From the NCBI GenBank assembly GCA_029858255.1, contig JAOUFJ010000021.1:1-41829 (forward strand): a stretch of 41,829 nt of DNA, read 5' to 3'. A program made the translations under genes and the position numbers. The notes under the pieces are model-generated. The model was not told the DNA's origin, made no database searches, and saw only the letters and a list, made by a program, of their open reading frames with translations. The DNA is from a candidate division WOR-3 bacterium. Lineage in GTDB: Bacteria > Hydrothermota > Tepidihabitantia > SM23-42. Of this stretch, positions 12,609-27,122 are shown one piece after another. Every line of letters begins with the position of its first letter. Position 1 is the stretch's first letter.

Positions 12609-13823
12609 ATGGTCAAGGTTATCGCAAGCCGAGATAAGAGAATCCCTCAAGGCGCAAGACTAACAACGATTAATGGCCATAAAATTGAAGACTTCCTCGA
12701 ATTCCAGTTCTACAATGACTCCGATACGACCCGTCACATCGTGTTGGAGTACAATAGCACTCGAAAGAAGGTAACATACAGGCGGTGTCAGGAAATACCA
12801 GTTACGCTTGATACGCCACGCTACAGAGTGTGCACGAACAATTGCCATTTCTGTTTCATCAAGGGTCTGCCAGGATCTTTAAGAAAGGAACTCTACTTTA
12901 AGGACGATGACTACCGGCTTTCTTTCGTGTTCGGTAATTTCCTGAGCCTGACCAATATCAAACGCTCGGATATCTCAAGAATCGCTCGACTCAAACTTTC
13001 TCCACTCTATGTATCAGTGCATACTACAGACCCAGAATTGCGTGCCAGGCTCTTCAAGAATGAGAGAGCAGCCATGATCACGGAGCAATTGAAAGCACTT
13101 GGGAGTCATGGTGTGAAATTGCACTGCCAGATCGTAGTAATCCCTGGAATTACCGATGGAAGAAGTCTTCTCAAAACCATAGCTGAACTGTGGCAATTGT
13201 ATCCGGCGGTCGCTTCGATCGGAATTGTACCGGTAGGAAAAACCAAATACATGAAAGGAATTCCACTTGTTTCGAAAAAAGAGAGCCGGTCGATCTTGAA
13301 AATTGTAAATATGTTACACCAGTATTTCCGGGGAATCACCCATCGCGGACTTGTGTACCTGGCAGACGAGTTTTACCTGAAGGCAGGTTATCCGATACCA
13401 GAAAGAGAATACTATGATGACTACCCTCAATACGAGAATGGAATCGGCATGGTCAGATCTTTCCTCGAAGAAATGAAGGGGATCAGAAGGCTCAAGAAAT
13501 CGAAGGGCAGACATCTGATCCTGACCGGTGTCTCCGCCTATCCATATCTGGAGCGACTCAAAACTCGACTGGCCCCTGGCATCCGCATAGAAATCAACCC
13601 TGTCACAAACAGATTTCTCGGAAAAACCGTAACCGTTTCTGGACTGCTGTGTGCGGGTGATATAAACCGGCATATATCGGCTCATGGAAGTAAATTTGAT
13701 CGCATAATCCTACCCCCAAATTGCGTAAACGACAAAGGTCAGTTTCTGGACGGCAAAACAATCACTGATAAACGCGCTTTCATATCTCCGAAGAGCCTGA
13801 AGGAGTTGATCTCGTGCCTATAA
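12609..13823 (+). CDS. DUF512 radical-SAM-like iron-sulfur protein
   Basis: 404 residues. An N-terminal PDZ-like segment (PQGARLTTINGHKIEDFLEF, residues 13-32) precedes Cys75, Cys79 and Cys82 (CTNNCHFCF), the CxxxCxxC iron-sulfur motif of radical SAM enzymes. The downstream KELYFKDDDYRLSFVFGNF and YVSVHTTDPELRARLF blocks are hallmarks of the DUF512 family. PVGKTKY and the C-terminal FLGKTVTVSGLLCAGDI motif complete it. The biochemical role of the family is not established; a link to ribosome or translation maintenance is only suggested by its frequent place beside der, as here. The ATG at 12609 has no ribosome binding site and coincides with the predicted transcription start. The stop overlaps der by 10 bp. 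Confidence 0.88.
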   Translation: MVKVIASRDKRIPQGARLTTINGHKIEDFLEFQFYNDSDTTRHIVLEYNSTRKKVTYRRCQEIPVTLDTPRYRVCTNNCHFCFIKGLPGSLRKELYFKDDDYRLSFVFGNFLSLTNIKRSDISRIARLKLSPLYVSVHTTDPELRARLFKNERAAMITEQLKALGSHGVKLHCQIVVIPGITDGRSLLKTIAELWQLYPAVASIGIVPVGKTKYMKGIPLVSKKESRSILKIVNMLHQYFRGITHRGLVYLADEFYLKAGYPIPEREYYDDYPQYENGIGMVRSFLEEMKGIRRLKKSKGRHLILTGVSAYPYLERLKTRLAPGIRIEINPVTNRFLGKTVTVSGLLCAGDINRHISAHGSKFDRIILPPNCVNDKGQFLDGKTITDKRAFISPKSLKELISCL

Positions 13824-20544: not shown

Positions 20545-21522
20545 CTACTTGTATTTTGACATTTCCTTCTTGAGTTGTTCAATTCTAACAACCGGCATCG
20601 GGTCGATACCCTGCTCGATTGCCAGGTAATAACTGATAAAATCACCCAGCATAATGGTCCAGAATATGTGCTGCAAGGCGTCATTTCCCCTGGGTTCGAC
20701 ATCGTTGATCGCAGAGATCTCGCTACTGACCAGAGATTTCAACAGCCTTCTCCTCAGCTTGTTTCGTGGATGCGCCCCGGGATCATTGAGAAAAACAATT
20801 GTGATATACTTATTTAAGAATGCAGGTCTACCCAAACCTACAATTTCGTTATGATTCATTTCCGGTATTACGTTGAAGTGAGCAAGCACCTTTGCATTCT
20901 CATTCAACTGACAGCGCCAGCGATTTGCCACGGGCATGAACTTCGCCGAGTCGGAATAGATGACAGGCAATTTATCGTGAAATTTGACCGCCATCTTTTT
21001 TGCCATTTGTTCAATGCCGTCTCTTTCACTCACGAGGAATTTTGATAGAGAGATCAAATTTTTCCGGGGGTCAACCTTGGTGAGACCCACCTGGTGTATT
21101 ATGATGGGAAGAGGTGTGAATAAATACCCCAGCGCCCCGCGCGGCGGCAATCCCCCAGGTACCCGGATCTTTCTAAGTGCCTTCTTCTTGAGCAATTTGC
21201 CGTTCGAAGAAATCACCACCGTGTCAGTTTTTCGCCGCAGCAGCTGCTGGAAATTACTGAGTGTTTCTTCTGTATTACCCGAATAACTCACAAGAATCGC
21301 AAGTGTCTTACTATCGATAAACTTGGGTATATTGTAATCTTTGTTTGAAATTATCATAAGCTCCAGGTACAGCGCAGACAGTATCTCGCCGCTGATTCCC
21401 GATCCTCCCATCCCGCATATCAGAACCTTATCATATTTTTTTCTGCCGAATGACTCTTCGGGCACAAGCCTTATAGTCTCCGATATCTGTTCGGGTAAAG
21501 AGTATATTATTGCACGCATCAT
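20545..21522 (-). CDS. Bifunctional phosphoglucose/phosphomannose isomerase (SIS domains)
   Basis: 325 residues. It interconverts glucose-6-P or mannose-6-P with fructose-6-P. The first SIS domain has ICGMGGSGISGEI and LVSYSGNTEETL; the sugar and catalytic region is ENAKVLAHFNVIPEMNHNEI, of which the HNEI block is diagnostic. The C-terminus DPMPVVRIEQLK is typical of the PGI/PMI family. Its ATG overlaps the ptsI stop as ATGA, so it belongs to the PTS operon and would feed a PTS-imported hexose phosphate, plausibly mannose or glucose, into glycolysis. Confidence 0.93.
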   Translation of the reverse strand: MMRAIIYSLPEQISETIRLVPEESFGRKKYDKVLICGMGGSGISGEILSALYLELMIISNKDYNIPKFIDSKTLAILVSYSGNTEETLSNFQQLLRRKTDTVVISSNGKLLKKKALRKIRVPGGLPPRGALGYLFTPLPIIIHQVGLTKVDPRKNLISLSKFLVSERDGIEQMAKKMAVKFHDKLPVIYSDSAKFMPVANRWRCQLNENAKVLAHFNVIPEMNHNEIVGLGRPAFLNKYITIVFLNDPGAHPRNKLRRRLLKSLVSSEISAINDVEPRGNDALQHIFWTIMLGDFISYYLAIEQGIDPMPVVRIEQLKKEMSKYK

Positions 21523-23267
21523 TTTATGCCCCCAATACCTGGAAACCTCTTGGCTATCATGCGATTGAGAAACTTCTGTACCTCACTTGCGCATCGAAAG
21601 TTGAGCGCCCTTTCTGCGATCTTTTCGCATTCCGGAACGGTGAGCGCCCGCAAGACCATTTTTGCTTTGGGTATTGCTACCGGGCTCATCGACAATTCAT
21701 CAATGCCCAATCCAACAAGCAAGGGAATTGCCAGGGGATCGGCCGCAAGTTCACCGCACAGACCCACCCATATGTGAGACTTGTGGCCGGCATCGATCAC
21801 TTGTTTAATCAGACGCAGCACCGCCGGATGAAAATGGTCGAATAGGTGACTCACCCTTTCGTTACCGCGATCGACCGCCAGAACGTATTGCGTCAGGTCG
21901 TTCGAACCGATGCTGAAAAAATCAACATGTGCCGCAAACTCGGTGCTCATGATCGCCGCGGAAGGAGTTTCGACCATGATACCTACCTGTATGTGGTCGT
22001 CGAAATCGACCTTCTCCTTTTTCAATTCTTCAGTAACCTCTTTGAAATAAGCATTCGCCTCCCTGATCTCCTCGTAGGTCGATATCATAGGATACATTAC
22101 CCTTATGTTTCGATTAACCGAGGCACGTAGAATAGCCCGCAATTGTATTTTGAAGAAATCGAAATTATCGAGGCTGACCCTGATTGCTCGCCAGCCAAGA
22201 AAAGGATTCGCTTCGTGATAATCAGAAAATATCTTGTCGCCGCCGAGATCGTACGTCCTGATAATCACCGGGTCGGGCTTCATTTTTTTTGCCAGTTCAT
22301 CGTAAACGCGGAATTGCTCTTCTTCGGAAGGGTTGCCGCGCCTTGTAAGGTAAAGAAATTCTGTTCGGAACAAACCAATCCCCATCGCACCTGACCTCTT
22401 TGCATGAGCATATTCTACGAAGAACTCGATATTGGCCGATATGTCAATTTGACGCCCATCACGCGTCTTCGCCGGCAACTCGCAAAACGGCGAGAGCATC
22501 TTCTGATACTCAATCTCCTTTTTTATCTCACCACGGTAGAACTGAATGCGCCCCGGAGTTGGGCTTTTAATGAGAATCCCGCGATTTCCGTCAAGTATTA
22601 CCTTCTCTCCATTCTTTATCTTAGTGAGCAGATTCTCCACCCCGACAACAGCAGGTATCTCCAGAGCGCGCGCTGTGATCGCAGTATGTGATGTGCGCCC
22701 CCCAACCTCTATCGCAATGCCGAGAACATTGATGGGGTTTATCAATGCCGCATCGGACGGTGAAATATCGTGTGCAACCAGAACCGAACCTTGGGGAACA
22801 TCAACAACAGAACTATGAGTCATACCGACGAGATTGCGTAATACACGTGTACCAACGTCCCAGATATCGGCAACCCGCTCCCTCAGGTATTGGTCTCGGC
22901 TTGCGCCAAGCTTTCTTGCATACTCATCGAGGACTTCATGATATATATACTCAGCATTGGTTTTTTCTGTTTTTATTCTCTCACTGACAGTTTCAATAAT
23001 TTCACGGTCTTTGAGCATCAATATCTGCGCATCGAGAAATTGTGCAAAATCAACACCGATCTCTTCATTGATACGCTCCTTTATACTGCTCAGTTCCTTT
23101 TCAGTTTTTTTCAGCGCTTTGGCGAAGCGTTCAACTTCTGTCGCCAGATAGCGCACCGGTATCGGCGTCTGCAAGATCTTGACTTCTTTCGTCTCGTAAA
23201 CAAAAACCACACCCTGACAAATGCCTTTCGAAACAGCAATGCCTTTCAATATTCTCTCTTTGGCCAT
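21519..23267 (-). CDS. ptsI: PTS Enzyme I (phosphoenolpyruvate-protein phosphotransferase)
   Basis: 582 residues, standard length. It autophosphorylates from PEP and passes the phosphate to HPr in the cytoplasm. The active histidine is His194 in GGRTSHTAITARALEIP. The PEP-binding TIM barrel has GIGLFRTEFLYL and the catalytic cysteine in VGLCGELAADP. All hallmark motifs are intact. ATG 23267 overlaps the ptsH stop by one base. Confidence 0.96.
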   Translation of the reverse strand: MAKERILKGIAVSKGICQGVVFVYETKEVKILQTPIPVRYLATEVERFAKALKKTEKELSSIKERINEEIGVDFAQFLDAQILMLKDREIIETVSERIKTEKTNAEYIYHEVLDEYARKLGASRDQYLRERVADIWDVGTRVLRNLVGMTHSSVVDVPQGSVLVAHDISPSDAALINPINVLGIAIEVGGRTSHTAITARALEIPAVVGVENLLTKIKNGEKVILDGNRGILIKSPTPGRIQFYRGEIKKEIEYQKMLSPFCELPAKTRDGRQIDISANIEFFVEYAHAKRSGAMGIGLFRTEFLYLTRRGNPSEEEQFRVYDELAKKMKPDPVIIRTYDLGGDKIFSDYHEANPFLGWRAIRVSLDNFDFFKIQLRAILRASVNRNIRVMYPMISTYEEIREANAYFKEVTEELKKEKVDFDDHIQVGIMVETPSAAIMSTEFAAHVDFFSIGSNDLTQYVLAVDRGNERVSHLFDHFHPAVLRLIKQVIDAGHKSHIWVGLCGELAADPLAIPLLVGLGIDELSMSPVAIPKAKMVLRALTVPECEKIAERALNFRCASEVQKFLNRMIAKRFPGIGGIK

Positions 23268-23524
23268 CAGTCTTGTCCCTCCAAAATCTTCTTCAAAACC
23301 TCATAAGCCTCTTTCTCATCATCGCCCTCAGTGGTCAAAATCACGTTACTCCCCTTCTCGCAAGCTAGTGTGAGAATACCCATGATGCTCTTGCCGCTGA
23401 CCTCCACTCCATCTTTTGTTATTGTTATATCGCTCTTGAATTTCTCGGCCTGCTTCACGAATCGTGAGGCCGGAAGAGCATGCAGACCATTTTCATTTAA
23501 TATGGTAACTTTTTCTTTAATCAT
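23267..23524 (-). CDS. ptsH: PTS phosphocarrier protein HPr, with Leu at position 17
   Basis: 85 residues. It shuttles phosphate from Enzyme I to PTS IIA domains. His15 (GLHALPA) is present, and Ser46 (GKSIMGI), the regulatory serine of many HPr proteins, is also present. Position 17, which is Arg in the GLHxRPA consensus and stabilises the phosphohistidine, is Leu (codon CTT, one base from CGT). The fold is otherwise normal in length and pattern. It sits between IID and Enzyme I with 1 to 3 bp spacing. Confidence 0.93.
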   Translation of the reverse strand: MIKEKVTILNENGLHALPASRFVKQAEKFKSDITITKDGVEVSGKSIMGILTLACEKGSNVILTTEGDDEKEAYEVLKKILEGQD

Positions 23525-23527
23525 ATA

Positions 23528-24220
23528 CTACACCATACCTATTATCAGAACGACCAGCAGGACAGATACGATTATCATGACCGCAGAGTATCTCTTAACG
23601 AGCATTATCAAGAAGAGTGCCGTTAAAGGAAGAACGAGCAGGTAGTTGACCTCGACGGCGATCAGCGAGAGCAATAATCCACTGAGCAACGCACCAACTG
23701 CCTCGAATACCTGTCTGACAGTTTTGAATCGTCGCTTGTTCAGCAGATATATTACATCCCAACCCATACTGTACCCATCACTGATTCCCTTGATGCGATG
23801 GAACAGATGAAAAACGTTATAGACGACAAGAAATGTCAGCGGTCCTATGATCCCATAATGGACACCCAAGATCACGGCCGCGAGGAGCAATGCCGGGCGG
23901 AGCGTGCGCCAGAAGAGAAGATCACCTGCTGATGCAAAACTTGTTTGTGCAACCGAAATAAATTTCTTTATCTCTTCGGCAGAAGCCTTACCTTCATCGT
24001 ATGCGCGCACGGTTGCGCCAACAATATAAGAAACCATGTACGGATGAGTATTGAACAGACCTTTTTGGGTCTTCATTATCTCGGCCCTCTTATCTTCATC
24101 AACGCCAACAAGCACACCCGATAAAAAACCCATGCTCTGCATCGAAGGAAAAGACCATGAGGTCTGGATGAACAAACTCTGGAAGAAAATCCTCAGAAGA
24201 CGACCAAGGCTAAGCCGCAT
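23528..24220 (-). CDS. PTS mannose/fructose/sorbose family IID component
   Basis: 230 residues. With IIC it forms the membrane channel of mannose-class PTS permeases. Typical blocks are FIQTSWSFPSMQSMGFLSG at the N-terminus, NTHPYMVSYIVGATVRAYDEG, and GDLLFWRTLRPALLL, followed by hydrophobic segments to the C-terminus. It is shorter than many IID proteins (about 270-300 residues). The ATG at 24220 follows GGAGG by three bases and lies within the end of IIC (28-bp overlap). Confidence 0.92.
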   Translation of the reverse strand: MRLSLGRLLRIFFQSLFIQTSWSFPSMQSMGFLSGVLVGVDEDKRAEIMKTQKGLFNTHPYMVSYIVGATVRAYDEGKASAEEIKKFISVAQTSFASAGDLLFWRTLRPALLLAAVILGVHYGIIGPLTFLVVYNVFHLFHRIKGISDGYSMGWDVIYLLNKRRFKTVRQVFEAVGALLSGLLLSLIAVEVNYLLVLPLTALFLIMLVKRYSAVMIIVSVLLVVLIIGMV

Positions 24221-24837
24221 ATGCCTCCAATCAACAAATAAACAGTTGTTTTGACTTTGACAAAGAGATAGAAACTATTCGCCAGTCCCAGACTTACACC
24301 GATGATCGCCATCGTTTCCGCATGGACCTGCGGAAACAAACCCGGAATTACAAACAGAGTTGAGAACACGAATATCGGGAGGAAAAGACACAGGCCCCGG
24401 CCAAATGCCGTCACCAGACCTGCGGTGTGGCAAATGTAGAGACTTTCTTCGTGATGAATGAAGCGAGCATACAATTTTTCATTGAATCGGCGCGCATATA
24501 TCTCCAGCACACCACCTGCGATGCCCCCGGCAAGACCGAGAACCGCGGCAACGAACAAAGAATGGCCAAGTGTGTTATTACCCCTCAAGAGGAAGTAGCT
24601 GGTGACCGTTATAATTCCTGCAGCCTGTCCATCCGGCGGAACATCGCGCCCGATTGGCAGACCACCAAGAAATATCAATTGTATCATAGCGCCAAGAAAA
24701 ATCCCGAACCAAACATCACCGAAAATGGCTCCGATGATGGTCCCGGTCATTATCGGCTGCGAAACGCCAAACTCACCCAGCGCATATTTATCAAGGATTA
24801 TTACTGAACCCAGCAAACTCAACAGAACCGCATTCAT
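24193..24837 (-). CDS. PTS mannose/fructose/sorbose family IIC component
   Basis: 214 residues, nearly all hydrophobic, with about six membrane spans. It is the sugar-translocating subunit. The GTIIGAIFGDVWFGIFLGAMIQ, GGLPIGRDVPPDG and AAGIITVTSYF blocks match the IIC (EII-Sor) family. ATG 24837 is eight bases after AAGGAGAT. Confidence 0.92.
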   Translation of the reverse strand: MNAVLLSLLGSVIILDKYALGEFGVSQPIMTGTIIGAIFGDVWFGIFLGAMIQLIFLGGLPIGRDVPPDGQAAGIITVTSYFLLRGNNTLGHSLFVAAVLGLAGGIAGGVLEIYARRFNEKLYARFIHHEESLYICHTAGLVTAFGRGLCLFLPIFVFSTLFVIPGLFPQVHAETMAIIGVSLGLANSFYLFVKVKTTVYLLIGGICGLALVVF

Positions 24838-24874
24838 GTATTACTATCTCCTTCTCTATATTTTGCGATACCGG

Positions 24875-25348
24875 TCATTTTATTCCAGCCAATTTCTTTA
24901 CAACATCCACCGCAACCGAGTTTGGCAGTTGCTTTCCTGTAACCTTGATGCCAATGCTATGTAGATATACTACCGATTCGATATCATTGGGTGAGAGATA
25001 TATGTATGGAGCTATTTCTCTCGTGCCTTCGTGATAACCCAATCCACCAACATTGACCTCAGGCACCCTGATTCCTTTGGCGACCAGCTCGGAAGCCTCT
25101 CCTACCGATTCAACAATTATCATTATGCGTCTCTTGTTTGTGTTGTTCATCCGCGTCGCGCACTCTTCTATGGTGTAGCAGCTGAATTCGATCCCTTCGG
25201 GAATCGCCAAGCGGTATGCATTGCAGGACCATTCATCACGGCTCAACCTATCCGATGCCAGGATTATGAAGTGAATACCCAGCGGTCTTGCCCAGCCGGC
25301 AATCACCTGGCCGTGGATCAATCGGTCATCAACTCTCAAGATCAACAT
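24875..25348 (-). CDS. PTS mannose/fructose/sorbose family IIB component
   Basis: 157 residues. It takes phosphate from IIA on His12 (RVDDRLIHGQV) and passes it to the incoming sugar. NVGGLGYHEGTREIAPYIYLS is the conserved second half. The length is normal for a stand-alone IIB. The ATG directly follows the stop codon of the receptor-like gene. No IIA gene or domain is present in this operon or elsewhere in the window. Confidence 0.93.
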   Translation of the reverse strand: MLILRVDDRLIHGQVIAGWARPLGIHFIILASDRLSRDEWSCNAYRLAIPEGIEFSCYTIEECATRMNNTNKRRIMIIVESVGEASELVAKGIRVPEVNVGGLGYHEGTREIAPYIYLSPNDIESVVYLHSIGIKVTGKQLPNSVAVDVVKKLAGIK

Positions 25349-27088
25349 TTAGTCCCAGAACTCCCATTTGACCGACACATCAAAATTCCTCGGCGCCATC
25401 GGATAAAAAGGCAGGTAAGCATACTCTTCATCAAAAATGTTGTTCAATCTCAGTACACAGGAAAGACCCATGAACTTGACCAAACCAGCCGCCGAAAAAA
25501 CACTGTACCCTGAATACTCTGCGCCTGAAATGTCGTACCTCTCGTTGCTGTACTCTGCGCGCAGTACAATTCCAAAACCGAAACGCGGTGTCTCGCGTCT
25601 GAAGGCTGCAACCGCGCCGACGCCGAGGCGAGGAAAATAAACCACTGTATCCCCGCTCAAGATCATGTTACCGCTAAGACCGACCACGAATTCGTTCAAC
25701 GTACTGCTGTCCGCGTTGTATGAACGCATCGGTAGGTTCACGTAACCCTCGAATCCGTTCATCTCCCATTTATCCACATTACCGTACCTGTAATAGTTTG
25801 GACTGTCGGAAAGTACCGTGATATAATCTGTGAACATGAGGCGATACGCATTGAGGATGAACTCATCGCTTCTGAACCCGACTTCCCCGCACCAGCAGTA
25901 CTCAGGGTTCATAAACTCATTGCCGGCTATCGCGAGATATGGGTTCAGCGTGTCGAACGGCGCCGAAGTTTCCATATCCGAAGGGCTGCGAGCATCCCTC
26001 GAGAATGCGGCATAAACAGCCGCAGAACGCAATGCCTTGACTCCCAATTCAATCCTGGGGAATAAGAAAATATCATGGTAACTTGCACGTTCGAGTTTTC
26101 CCGCCGCACGTACAAAACCCCGGCCAAACGATTTCACCAATCTCACCCAGACGTCTAACCCATTCGAAATGGTTGGCAAATATGTTTCCCCTTCCATCAG
26201 GGTGAAAAATGTGCTCGCCCCGTAATCCAACACAACACCCAACAAAGTATCGCTGCCTTCCGACCTCGCCCCAAAATGATCTACTTGCACACCCCAGGTT
26301 CTGTCATATACTGTGTCACGGTAATCCATAGTCTGACGTTCATAGAATAGAGTGAGCATCTCATTGCCCAACTTGGTCGTTCCGCTGACATCGAGGAATT
26401 CGTCTTTCTGGCGGCCTTCGACCGGTACCGAGGTACTACCCGGGAACCCGTAGTCGTCGTTAGCGTAGAGAATATCAAAACGTAAAGGAATAAAATAGTC
26501 AACATAAATATTGGTATACACTGAAAGGATTTGAGCATCAGCATTCTCACGGTGACCGTTTGTCTTATGGTATGAACCGCTCAGATAGAATCCCAGATCA
26601 TTTGTGATGCCGCGTGTCAGGTCAAAGCCATATGTATTGCTCTCGAAACTGCCGAACATGAAGTGAACAAGCGAGTATGGCCGTTCGTAACGGTTGATCT
26701 TAGACATGAAATTCATGCTGCTAAACTCGGCACCTGCAGTGGTTTGTCCGAATGACAATCTGTCAAAAAAATGAAGGGACAGCAAGCCTAGGTTGAAATT
26801 ACCAAATGGATGAGTGTTGAGTGAGTGGCCGTTAACGCTGACATGCGTATATGATGGCTTTCGCCCCTTGTTCATGACGGCACTCAACATGCCATAACCA
26901 TAAGACACCGGCGCGATCGGGAGATTCATTAATATATCGAGCGCCGTCTGCTCATGATACCTAACTGTTATCTCACCAACTGGATAGATTTCGCCAAAGG
27001 GTTCGACTACCTCCGGAATTTCATAAGTTATCACGGTATCAACTGCGGTTGAATCCCCATTGACTAGAAAAATAAGCATGAAAAACAC
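25349..27088 (-). CDS. TonB-dependent-receptor-like outer-membrane protein
   Basis: 579 residues. After a short hydrophobic start come a plug-like domain (ALDILMNLPIAPVSYGYG, VSVNGHSLNTHPFGNFNL, LSFGQTTAGAEFSSMNFMSKI, residues 50-130) and a long region of alternating aromatic-rich beta strands, ending in VKWEFWD as outer-membrane barrels do. No clear TonB box is visible. TonB receptors take up bulky ligands through the outer membrane; as the first gene before PTS IIB, with no gap, it may bring the sugar or an oligosaccharide into the periplasm. The start is GTG 27088, at the predicted transcription start, or ATG 27079 with a leader of about 9 nt. Neither has a good ribosome binding site. Confidence 0.8.
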   Translation of the reverse strand: MFFMLIFLVNGDSTAVDTVITYEIPEVVEPFGEIYPVGEITVRYHEQTALDILMNLPIAPVSYGYGMLSAVMNKGRKPSYTHVSVNGHSLNTHPFGNFNLGLLSLHFFDRLSFGQTTAGAEFSSMNFMSKINRYERPYSLVHFMFGSFESNTYGFDLTRGITNDLGFYLSGSYHKTNGHRENADAQILSVYTNIYVDYFIPLRFDILYANDDYGFPGSTSVPVEGRQKDEFLDVSGTTKLGNEMLTLFYERQTMDYRDTVYDRTWGVQVDHFGARSEGSDTLLGVVLDYGASTFFTLMEGETYLPTISNGLDVWVRLVKSFGRGFVRAAGKLERASYHDIFLFPRIELGVKALRSAAVYAAFSRDARSPSDMETSAPFDTLNPYLAIAGNEFMNPEYCWCGEVGFRSDEFILNAYRLMFTDYITVLSDSPNYYRYGNVDKWEMNGFEGYVNLPMRSYNADSSTLNEFVVGLSGNMILSGDTVVYFPRLGVGAVAAFRRETPRFGFGIVLRAEYSNERYDISGAEYSGYSVFSAAGLVKFMGLSCVLRLNNIFDEEYAYLPFYPMAPRNFDVSVKWEFWD

Positions 27089-27094
27089 TCATAA

Positions 27095-27122
27095 ATTATA
27101 GTTTAAATATACTCAATGTCAA
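27095..27122 (-). promoter_or_regulatory. Promoter of the receptor-PTS operon
   Basis: On the minus strand, consensus TTGACA (27122-27117), a 16-bp spacer, consensus TATAAT (27100-27095). The predicted start is 27088, on the GTG codon. Confidence 0.85.

Follow-up and report, generated by a model that had tools for sequence, protein, structure and literature searches.

Our analysis indicates that an operon in the genome of a candidate division WOR-3 bacterium probably encodes a coupled route of hexose uptake, in which a TonB-dependent transporter (TBDT) of the outer membrane works together with a phosphotransferase system (PTS) of the mannose family. The operon lies in the window, by which we mean the whole analysed stretch of 41,829 nucleotides, and consists of seven co-directional open reading frames on the minus strand (27088-20545), in which neighbouring genes overlap or lie no more than 37 nt apart:

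27089..27122, minus strand: promoter, TTGACA-N16-TATAAT-N6-GTG, directly before the GTG start; kept in the readable relatives
25349..27088, minus strand: TBDT (the barrel), 579 aa; profile and fold model
24875..25348, minus strand: PTS mannose/sorbose-family IIB, PF03830, active-site motif DDRLIHGQV; Pfam
24193..24837, minus strand: PTS mannose-family IIC, PF03609, short form of 214 aa; Pfam
23528..24220, minus strand: PTS mannose-family IID, PF03613, short form of 230 aa; Pfam
23267..23524, minus strand: HPr, PF00381; Pfam
21519..23267, minus strand: PTS Enzyme I (EI), motif GGRTSHTAI; TIGR01417 above cut-off
20545..21522, minus strand: bifunctional phosphoglucose/phosphomannose isomerase (PGI/PMI); TIGR02128 above cut-off

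The barrel gene is followed without any gap (0 nt) by that of IIB, and IIC begins 37 nt further on; IIC and IID overlap by 28 nt, 3 nt separate IID from HPr, and the overlaps of HPr with EI and of EI with PGI/PMI are 1 and 4 nt, respectively. Matches above the Pfam cut-offs were obtained for the six non-barrel genes (PF03830, PF03609, PF03613, PF00381, PF05524/PF00391/PF02896 and PF10432); the PF01380 match in PGI/PMI sits at its cut-off. The seven-gene order proposed in the initial annotation was confirmed, with every reading frame at its exact position within 27088-20545 on the minus strand, and the comparison with relatives, suggested there as a check, revealed the same seven genes in identical order down to about 22-35% barrel identity, which argues that the order is not random. 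What did not hold was the description of the locus as self-contained, since the gene for IIA lies together with hprK on another contig and TonB is also encoded outside the operon.

An argument for a functional connection between the barrel and the PTS is their linkage. We compared 61 genomes, 27 of the order (the window's genome included) and 34 others of the class, and the barrel gene directly precedes that of IIB in all 27 genomes of the order, two of which are cut by contig ends, IIB being inferred there from an IIB-sized gap between the barrel and a GH57 gene. The genetic linkage of the receptor to the PTS is borne out throughout the order, and it persists despite fast divergence of the barrel. 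No strong barrel match away from the PTS was found among the 61 genomes searched. Relatives bearing the PTS genes without the receptor had been named in advance as a case that would speak against coupling; such a PTS-EI unit does exist in six class relatives (L059-L064), with PGI present where the contig extends and a sugar-1-phosphate nucleotidyltransferase after PGI/PMI where read, but none occurs inside the order. The barrel-less state of these six relatives suggests that this order alone added the barrel to an older PTS-isomerase unit, or retained it there. In two of these relatives without the TBDT, a different, exported-looking reading frame of about 303-305 aa stands before IIB (L060:9684-10595 and L062:8951-9868); the one in L060 runs 4 nt into IIB and matched nothing in Pfam. 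A separate matter is that in two single-contig genomes of the window's genus (L051 of G004 and L055 of G002) the operon ends after IID or inside HPr, either through an assembly error or through a real rearrangement.

The barrel is a TBDT by both profile and fold. When the window's barrel was compared alone with Pfam, no family was matched, so that the relationship became visible only through an alignment of 22 homologues. Used as a profile, this alignment finds structurally solved TBDTs (best E 9e-17), and its residues 21-124 correspond to the N-terminal plug region of 8bmx_C. Among the homologues themselves, some give hits to the Pfam models for Plug or the TonB barrel, Plug being found in 6 of the 22 (best 7.3e-7), the window copy alone not among them. 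The predicted model (pLDDT 71.9, pTM 0.77) contains an N-terminal plug and, behind it, 22 DSSP strands between residues 138 and 578, and its best structural match is BtuB (Z 30.4 over 491 residues, rmsd 3.0 A, 14% identity), followed by BtuB1, BtuB3, FhuA and others. The receptor-like barrel of the initial annotation, which had suggested a structure prediction of barrel and plug, is thus a TBDT. Siderophore and haem receptors match the fold too, with Z lower than that of BtuB, and as several receptor classes are matched in this way we did not use the fold ranking to assign a ligand. The N-terminus carries a short uncharged hydrophobic leader and then a conserved D-S/T...YEIPE(I/V); the YEIPE(I/V) element is the best-conserved stretch (0.82) ahead of an unconserved linker and, as it follows the expected pattern, is a candidate TonB box. 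Very short leaders, often devoid of positive charge, were seen in outer-membrane proteins in the window (25349-27088), L066 and L070, e.g. MFFMLIFLVNGDST and MLLLLLSLMISQ. Outside the operon, the genome has 6 TonB_C matches over the cut-off and five further receptors with a recognisable plug. The surroundings are not those of a SusCD-type importer, in which the gene of a SusD lipoprotein neighbours the barrel: here the barrel abuts IIB without a gap, and the gene diverging upstream has an aminotransferase-like sequence.

The set of mannose-family PTS components is complete, with IIB, IIC and IID in the operon and a single IIA elsewhere. This IIA, which the annotation had recommended looking for, is the sole PF03610 copy of the genome, and it is located on another contig after hprK and an hpf-like gene. 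Adjacency of hprK and IIA was found in 25 of 25 genomes where IIA was found, class relatives included, and HprK exceeds its curated cut-off. Motifs containing the phosphorylatable histidines are present in EI (GGRTSHTAI), HPr (GLHALPAS), IIA (IVGHGSFSE) and IIB (DDRLIHGQV), and the closest solved relative of IIC is E. coli ManY (7dyr). HPr, which occurs as a single copy in the genome, retains both the His15 and the Ser46 sites, the latter in the context SGKSIMGI. Its active site reads GLHALPAS, with Arg17 replaced by Leu, in 24 of 24 order sequences read (window 23267-23524 and homologues L033-L058); the six class relatives have GLHARPAA and keep Arg17. The efficiency of phosphotransfer by an HPr devoid of the usual Arg17 is thus uncertain. 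A PTS EIIA of the fructose/Ntr type (PF00359) is encoded at L130:1746-2210, near an exported GH13 gene, and is a possible second HPr target.

The last gene of the operon could be assigned with confidence as a bifunctional PGI/PMI, as had been proposed, because it scores above the curated cut-offs of both TIGR02128 (263.4 bits vs 213.9) and PRK08674. In an alignment with 1tzb its regions of Glu (NENAK), His and Lys correspond, and we take these three residues to be those of the active site. A family search of the genome for classical PGI (PF00342) found none. With HPr present only once and no classical PGI, these genes of the operon probably function for the cell as a whole, and both HPr and the isomerase have the appearance of housekeeping genes.

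Every readable region upstream of the barrel contains a perfect TTGACA, a spacer of 16-17 nt and a perfect TATAAT that ends 5-6 nt ahead of the GTG start (ATG in one genome). The TATAAT position is the same in L047, and L043 fits the layout if its second in-frame GTG is the start. An earlier start is unlikely, as in-frame stops occur just upstream in most genomes. A promoter so close to the start codon is the layout of bacterial leaderless genes (PMC3160421), and a sigma-70 consensus promoter 5-6 nt from GTG implies that the operon mRNA is probably leaderless. Judging from the promoter sequence, expression is likely to be strong and to be subject to little control at the 5' end. A TATAAT element ends 6 nt before the start also in YggS-like genes (L036:929-1606, L050:1484-2161, L052:12944-13624 and L033:14261-14941) and likewise at the window gene at 12609; other leaderless genes are probably present in the order.

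The transported sugar is suggested by glycoside hydrolases. A GH57 gene occurs within the operon in 18 of the 27 genomes of the order, where it separates IIB from IIC (or, at a contig end, occupies the place at which IIC would be expected). Its product matches 4-alpha-glucanotransferase of Thermococcus litoralis (1k1w, E 8e-125), and with no signal peptide seen by eye it would be cytosolic. The gene is missing in one other genome and in the window's genus, which has lost it and in most cases contains GH77 (MalQ) in its place. Among the genomes searched, GH77 was found in 7 of the 9 that lack the operon GH57 vs 1 of the 16 that have it; in the window's genome GH77 follows a GH13 resembling glycogen branching enzyme. 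A GH57 present elsewhere in this genome was considered as the displaced operon gene and rejected, as it is a different GH57 (688 aa). The pattern of GH57 and GH77 ties the operon to glucose polymers, either imported or stored, and because most relatives hold a 4-alpha-glucanotransferase inside the operon, glucose would be the likeliest PTS sugar, an assignment which we make tentatively from gene content. Glycogen would be a more natural substrate for a cytosolic glucanotransferase than an imported sugar.

An exported GH13 of the neopullulanase/cyclomaltodextrinase type is encoded next to uvrB (G000:C3:126157-127836, L130:4158-5840, and L133-L154), and was present in 23 of 25 order genomes vs none of 8 class genomes searched. 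It was considered as the missing periplasmic amylase and dismissed, since the catalytic motifs are lost in 22 of 22 homologues read; it appears to be a conserved secreted pseudo-amylase. No extracellular or periplasmic hydrolase is encoded in the operon itself. The exchange of GH57 for GH77 looks like one displacement event, maybe in a single genus, and the co-occurrence of GH13 goes along with the same clade split, so that neither provides independent statistical support.

In the proposed mechanism, the BtuB-sized TBDT, powered by one of the TonB proteins of the genome, would deliver its substrate, a sugar or a short oligosaccharide, to the periplasm, from where IIC-IID would import a hexose during its phosphorylation. 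Judging from the protein families and the intact phosphorylation sites, phosphate would flow from PEP through EI, HPr, IIA and IIB to the sugar, most likely glucose, possibly derived from alpha-glucans, and PGI/PMI would turn the resulting hexose-6-phosphate into fructose-6-phosphate. HprK probably gates this flow by phosphorylation of HPr at Ser46. With these genes in one operon, the proteins for capture, phosphorylating import and entry to glycolysis would be made together. The initial annotation had read the layout in the same way, and this reading stands as far as the identities of TBDT, PTS and PGI/PMI and their order-wide linkage are concerned; it fails as to independence from genes located elsewhere. 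A fuller version, in which the BtuB-sized TBDT would be a dedicated and always co-expressed arm of the PTS across the order, serving a small sugar from a leaderless operon under little regulation, with the dead GH13 possibly binding alpha-glucan, is rather doubtful as a whole.

Points against the proposed mechanism, besides the replaced Arg17 of HPr and the operon's lack of an extracellular or periplasmic hydrolase, are the solved structures nearest to the barrel, which belong to transporters of B12 and siderophores and not of sugars. One may therefore suppose that the barrel carries cobalamin, a metal or a cofactor in the manner of BtuB and merely shares a strong promoter with the PTS; binding of metals or cofactors had been named in the initial annotation as evidence that would refute its reading. 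The matches closest by profile and by fold (BtuB, BtuB3-BtuG3 and siderophore receptors) agree with this supposition, as does the length of 579 aa, which is close to that of BtuB (594 aa in PDB chains) and well below that of SusC-type sugar transporters. We nevertheless regard it as improbable: a shared TBDT fold reveals no ligand, the barrel is never found away from the PTS in the 27 genomes, and a search of the window for a cobalamin riboswitch found none, nor would a probably leaderless mRNA offer room for one. It could also be argued that the operon is a general housekeeping unit for PTS and hexose-phosphate metabolism, and that the co-expressed barrel imports a substrate unrelated to the PTS sugar. 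The sole HPr copy, the absence of classical PGI, the constitutive-looking promoter and the occurrence of the same PTS unit without the barrel in six class relatives would all fit; however, the barrel and IIB would hardly be expected to stay adjacent order-wide while the barrel diverges so fast, and we consider this explanation quite improbable.

A variant that does not exclude the coupled TBDT-PTS route retains the same machine with a sugar other than glucose from alpha-glucans, be it mannose, an amino sugar or a different hexose. The best resemblance of IIA is to AgaF, and IIB is similar to galactosamine and mannose subunits, though all these matches are below the cut-off; the isomerase is bifunctional, and the nucleotidyltransferase after PGI/PMI in class relatives would be expected if mannose- or glucose-phosphate fed nucleotide sugars. 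On the other hand, the 4-alpha-glucanotransferase inside the operon of 18 of 27 genomes points to glucose polymers, and the operon contains no NagA/NagB-like gene. Another sugar is thus a real possibility, which we do not favour. The coupled route, with whichever hexose, would be a clear case, open to testing, in which an operon ties active transport across the outer membrane to phosphorylating import, in an arrangement fixed across an uncultured order. It leads to predictions on the ligand of the barrel, the sugar of the PTS and phosphotransfer through an HPr without Arg17, all of which are accessible to tests with purified proteins.

The initial annotation considered the pairing of a TBDT with a PTS unusual; in a strong sense this is not correct, and such coupling is not new, because the nag clusters of Caulobacter crescentus (CCNA_00452-00458) already combine a TBDT with the NagE PTS permease, a phosphotransferase, NagA and NagB (PMC13046382). 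According to that paper, in which Eisenbeis et al. 2008 is cited, one of the nag TBDTs is needed for GlcNAc use. In both bacteria the TBDT is encoded with a PTS permease, a phosphotransferase and onward sugar-phosphate enzymes. Unlike the Caulobacter clusters, with their NagE-type GlcNAc permease and GntR-type regulators, the WOR-3 operon comprises mannose-family IIB-IIC-IID and PGI/PMI, has a leaderless layout and no regulator, and belongs to a different phylum. What is new is the mannose-family permease, an operon that also takes in EI, HPr and PGI/PMI, the order-wide fixation in another phylum and the putative leaderless layout. Our word search of the open literature brought up no paper in which a mannose-family PTS is combined with a TonB-dependent receptor, which is weak evidence of absence. 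A word search of the main texts of two WOR-3 papers (PMC12285271 and PMC12542636) found PTS and TonB unmentioned, so that sugar uptake in this group appears to be little described.

Other known systems share single parts of the arrangement. The CUT loci of Xanthomonas, e.g. sux, consist of a TonB-dependent receptor, a non-PTS inner-membrane sugar transporter, amylosucrase and a regulator (PMC1790865), and like the WOR-3 operon they group the outer-membrane protein with a sugar transporter of the inner membrane and with metabolic enzymes; the WOR-3 operon, however, uses a PTS for the inner-membrane step, lacks a regulator and, in the window's genus, a degradative enzyme (relatives having GH57). 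BtuB has the same 22-strand barrel with a plug and a similar length, whereas the WOR-3 barrel stands in a sugar-PTS context with no riboswitch found. In Brucella, hprK and EIIA(Man) form a regulatory cluster and no PTS permease is present (PMC2937029); hprK is linked there, as in WOR-3, to a mannose-family IIA away from a permease, but WOR-3 does have the permease, for which the genome offers no PF03610 candidate other than this IIA. The E. coli ManXYZ system (7dyr) shares the IIB, IIC and IID families and the phosphorelay with the WOR-3 operon, in which IIA is unlinked and not fused to IIB, IIC and IID are shorter, and, in contrast to the E. coli unit, a TBDT is included.
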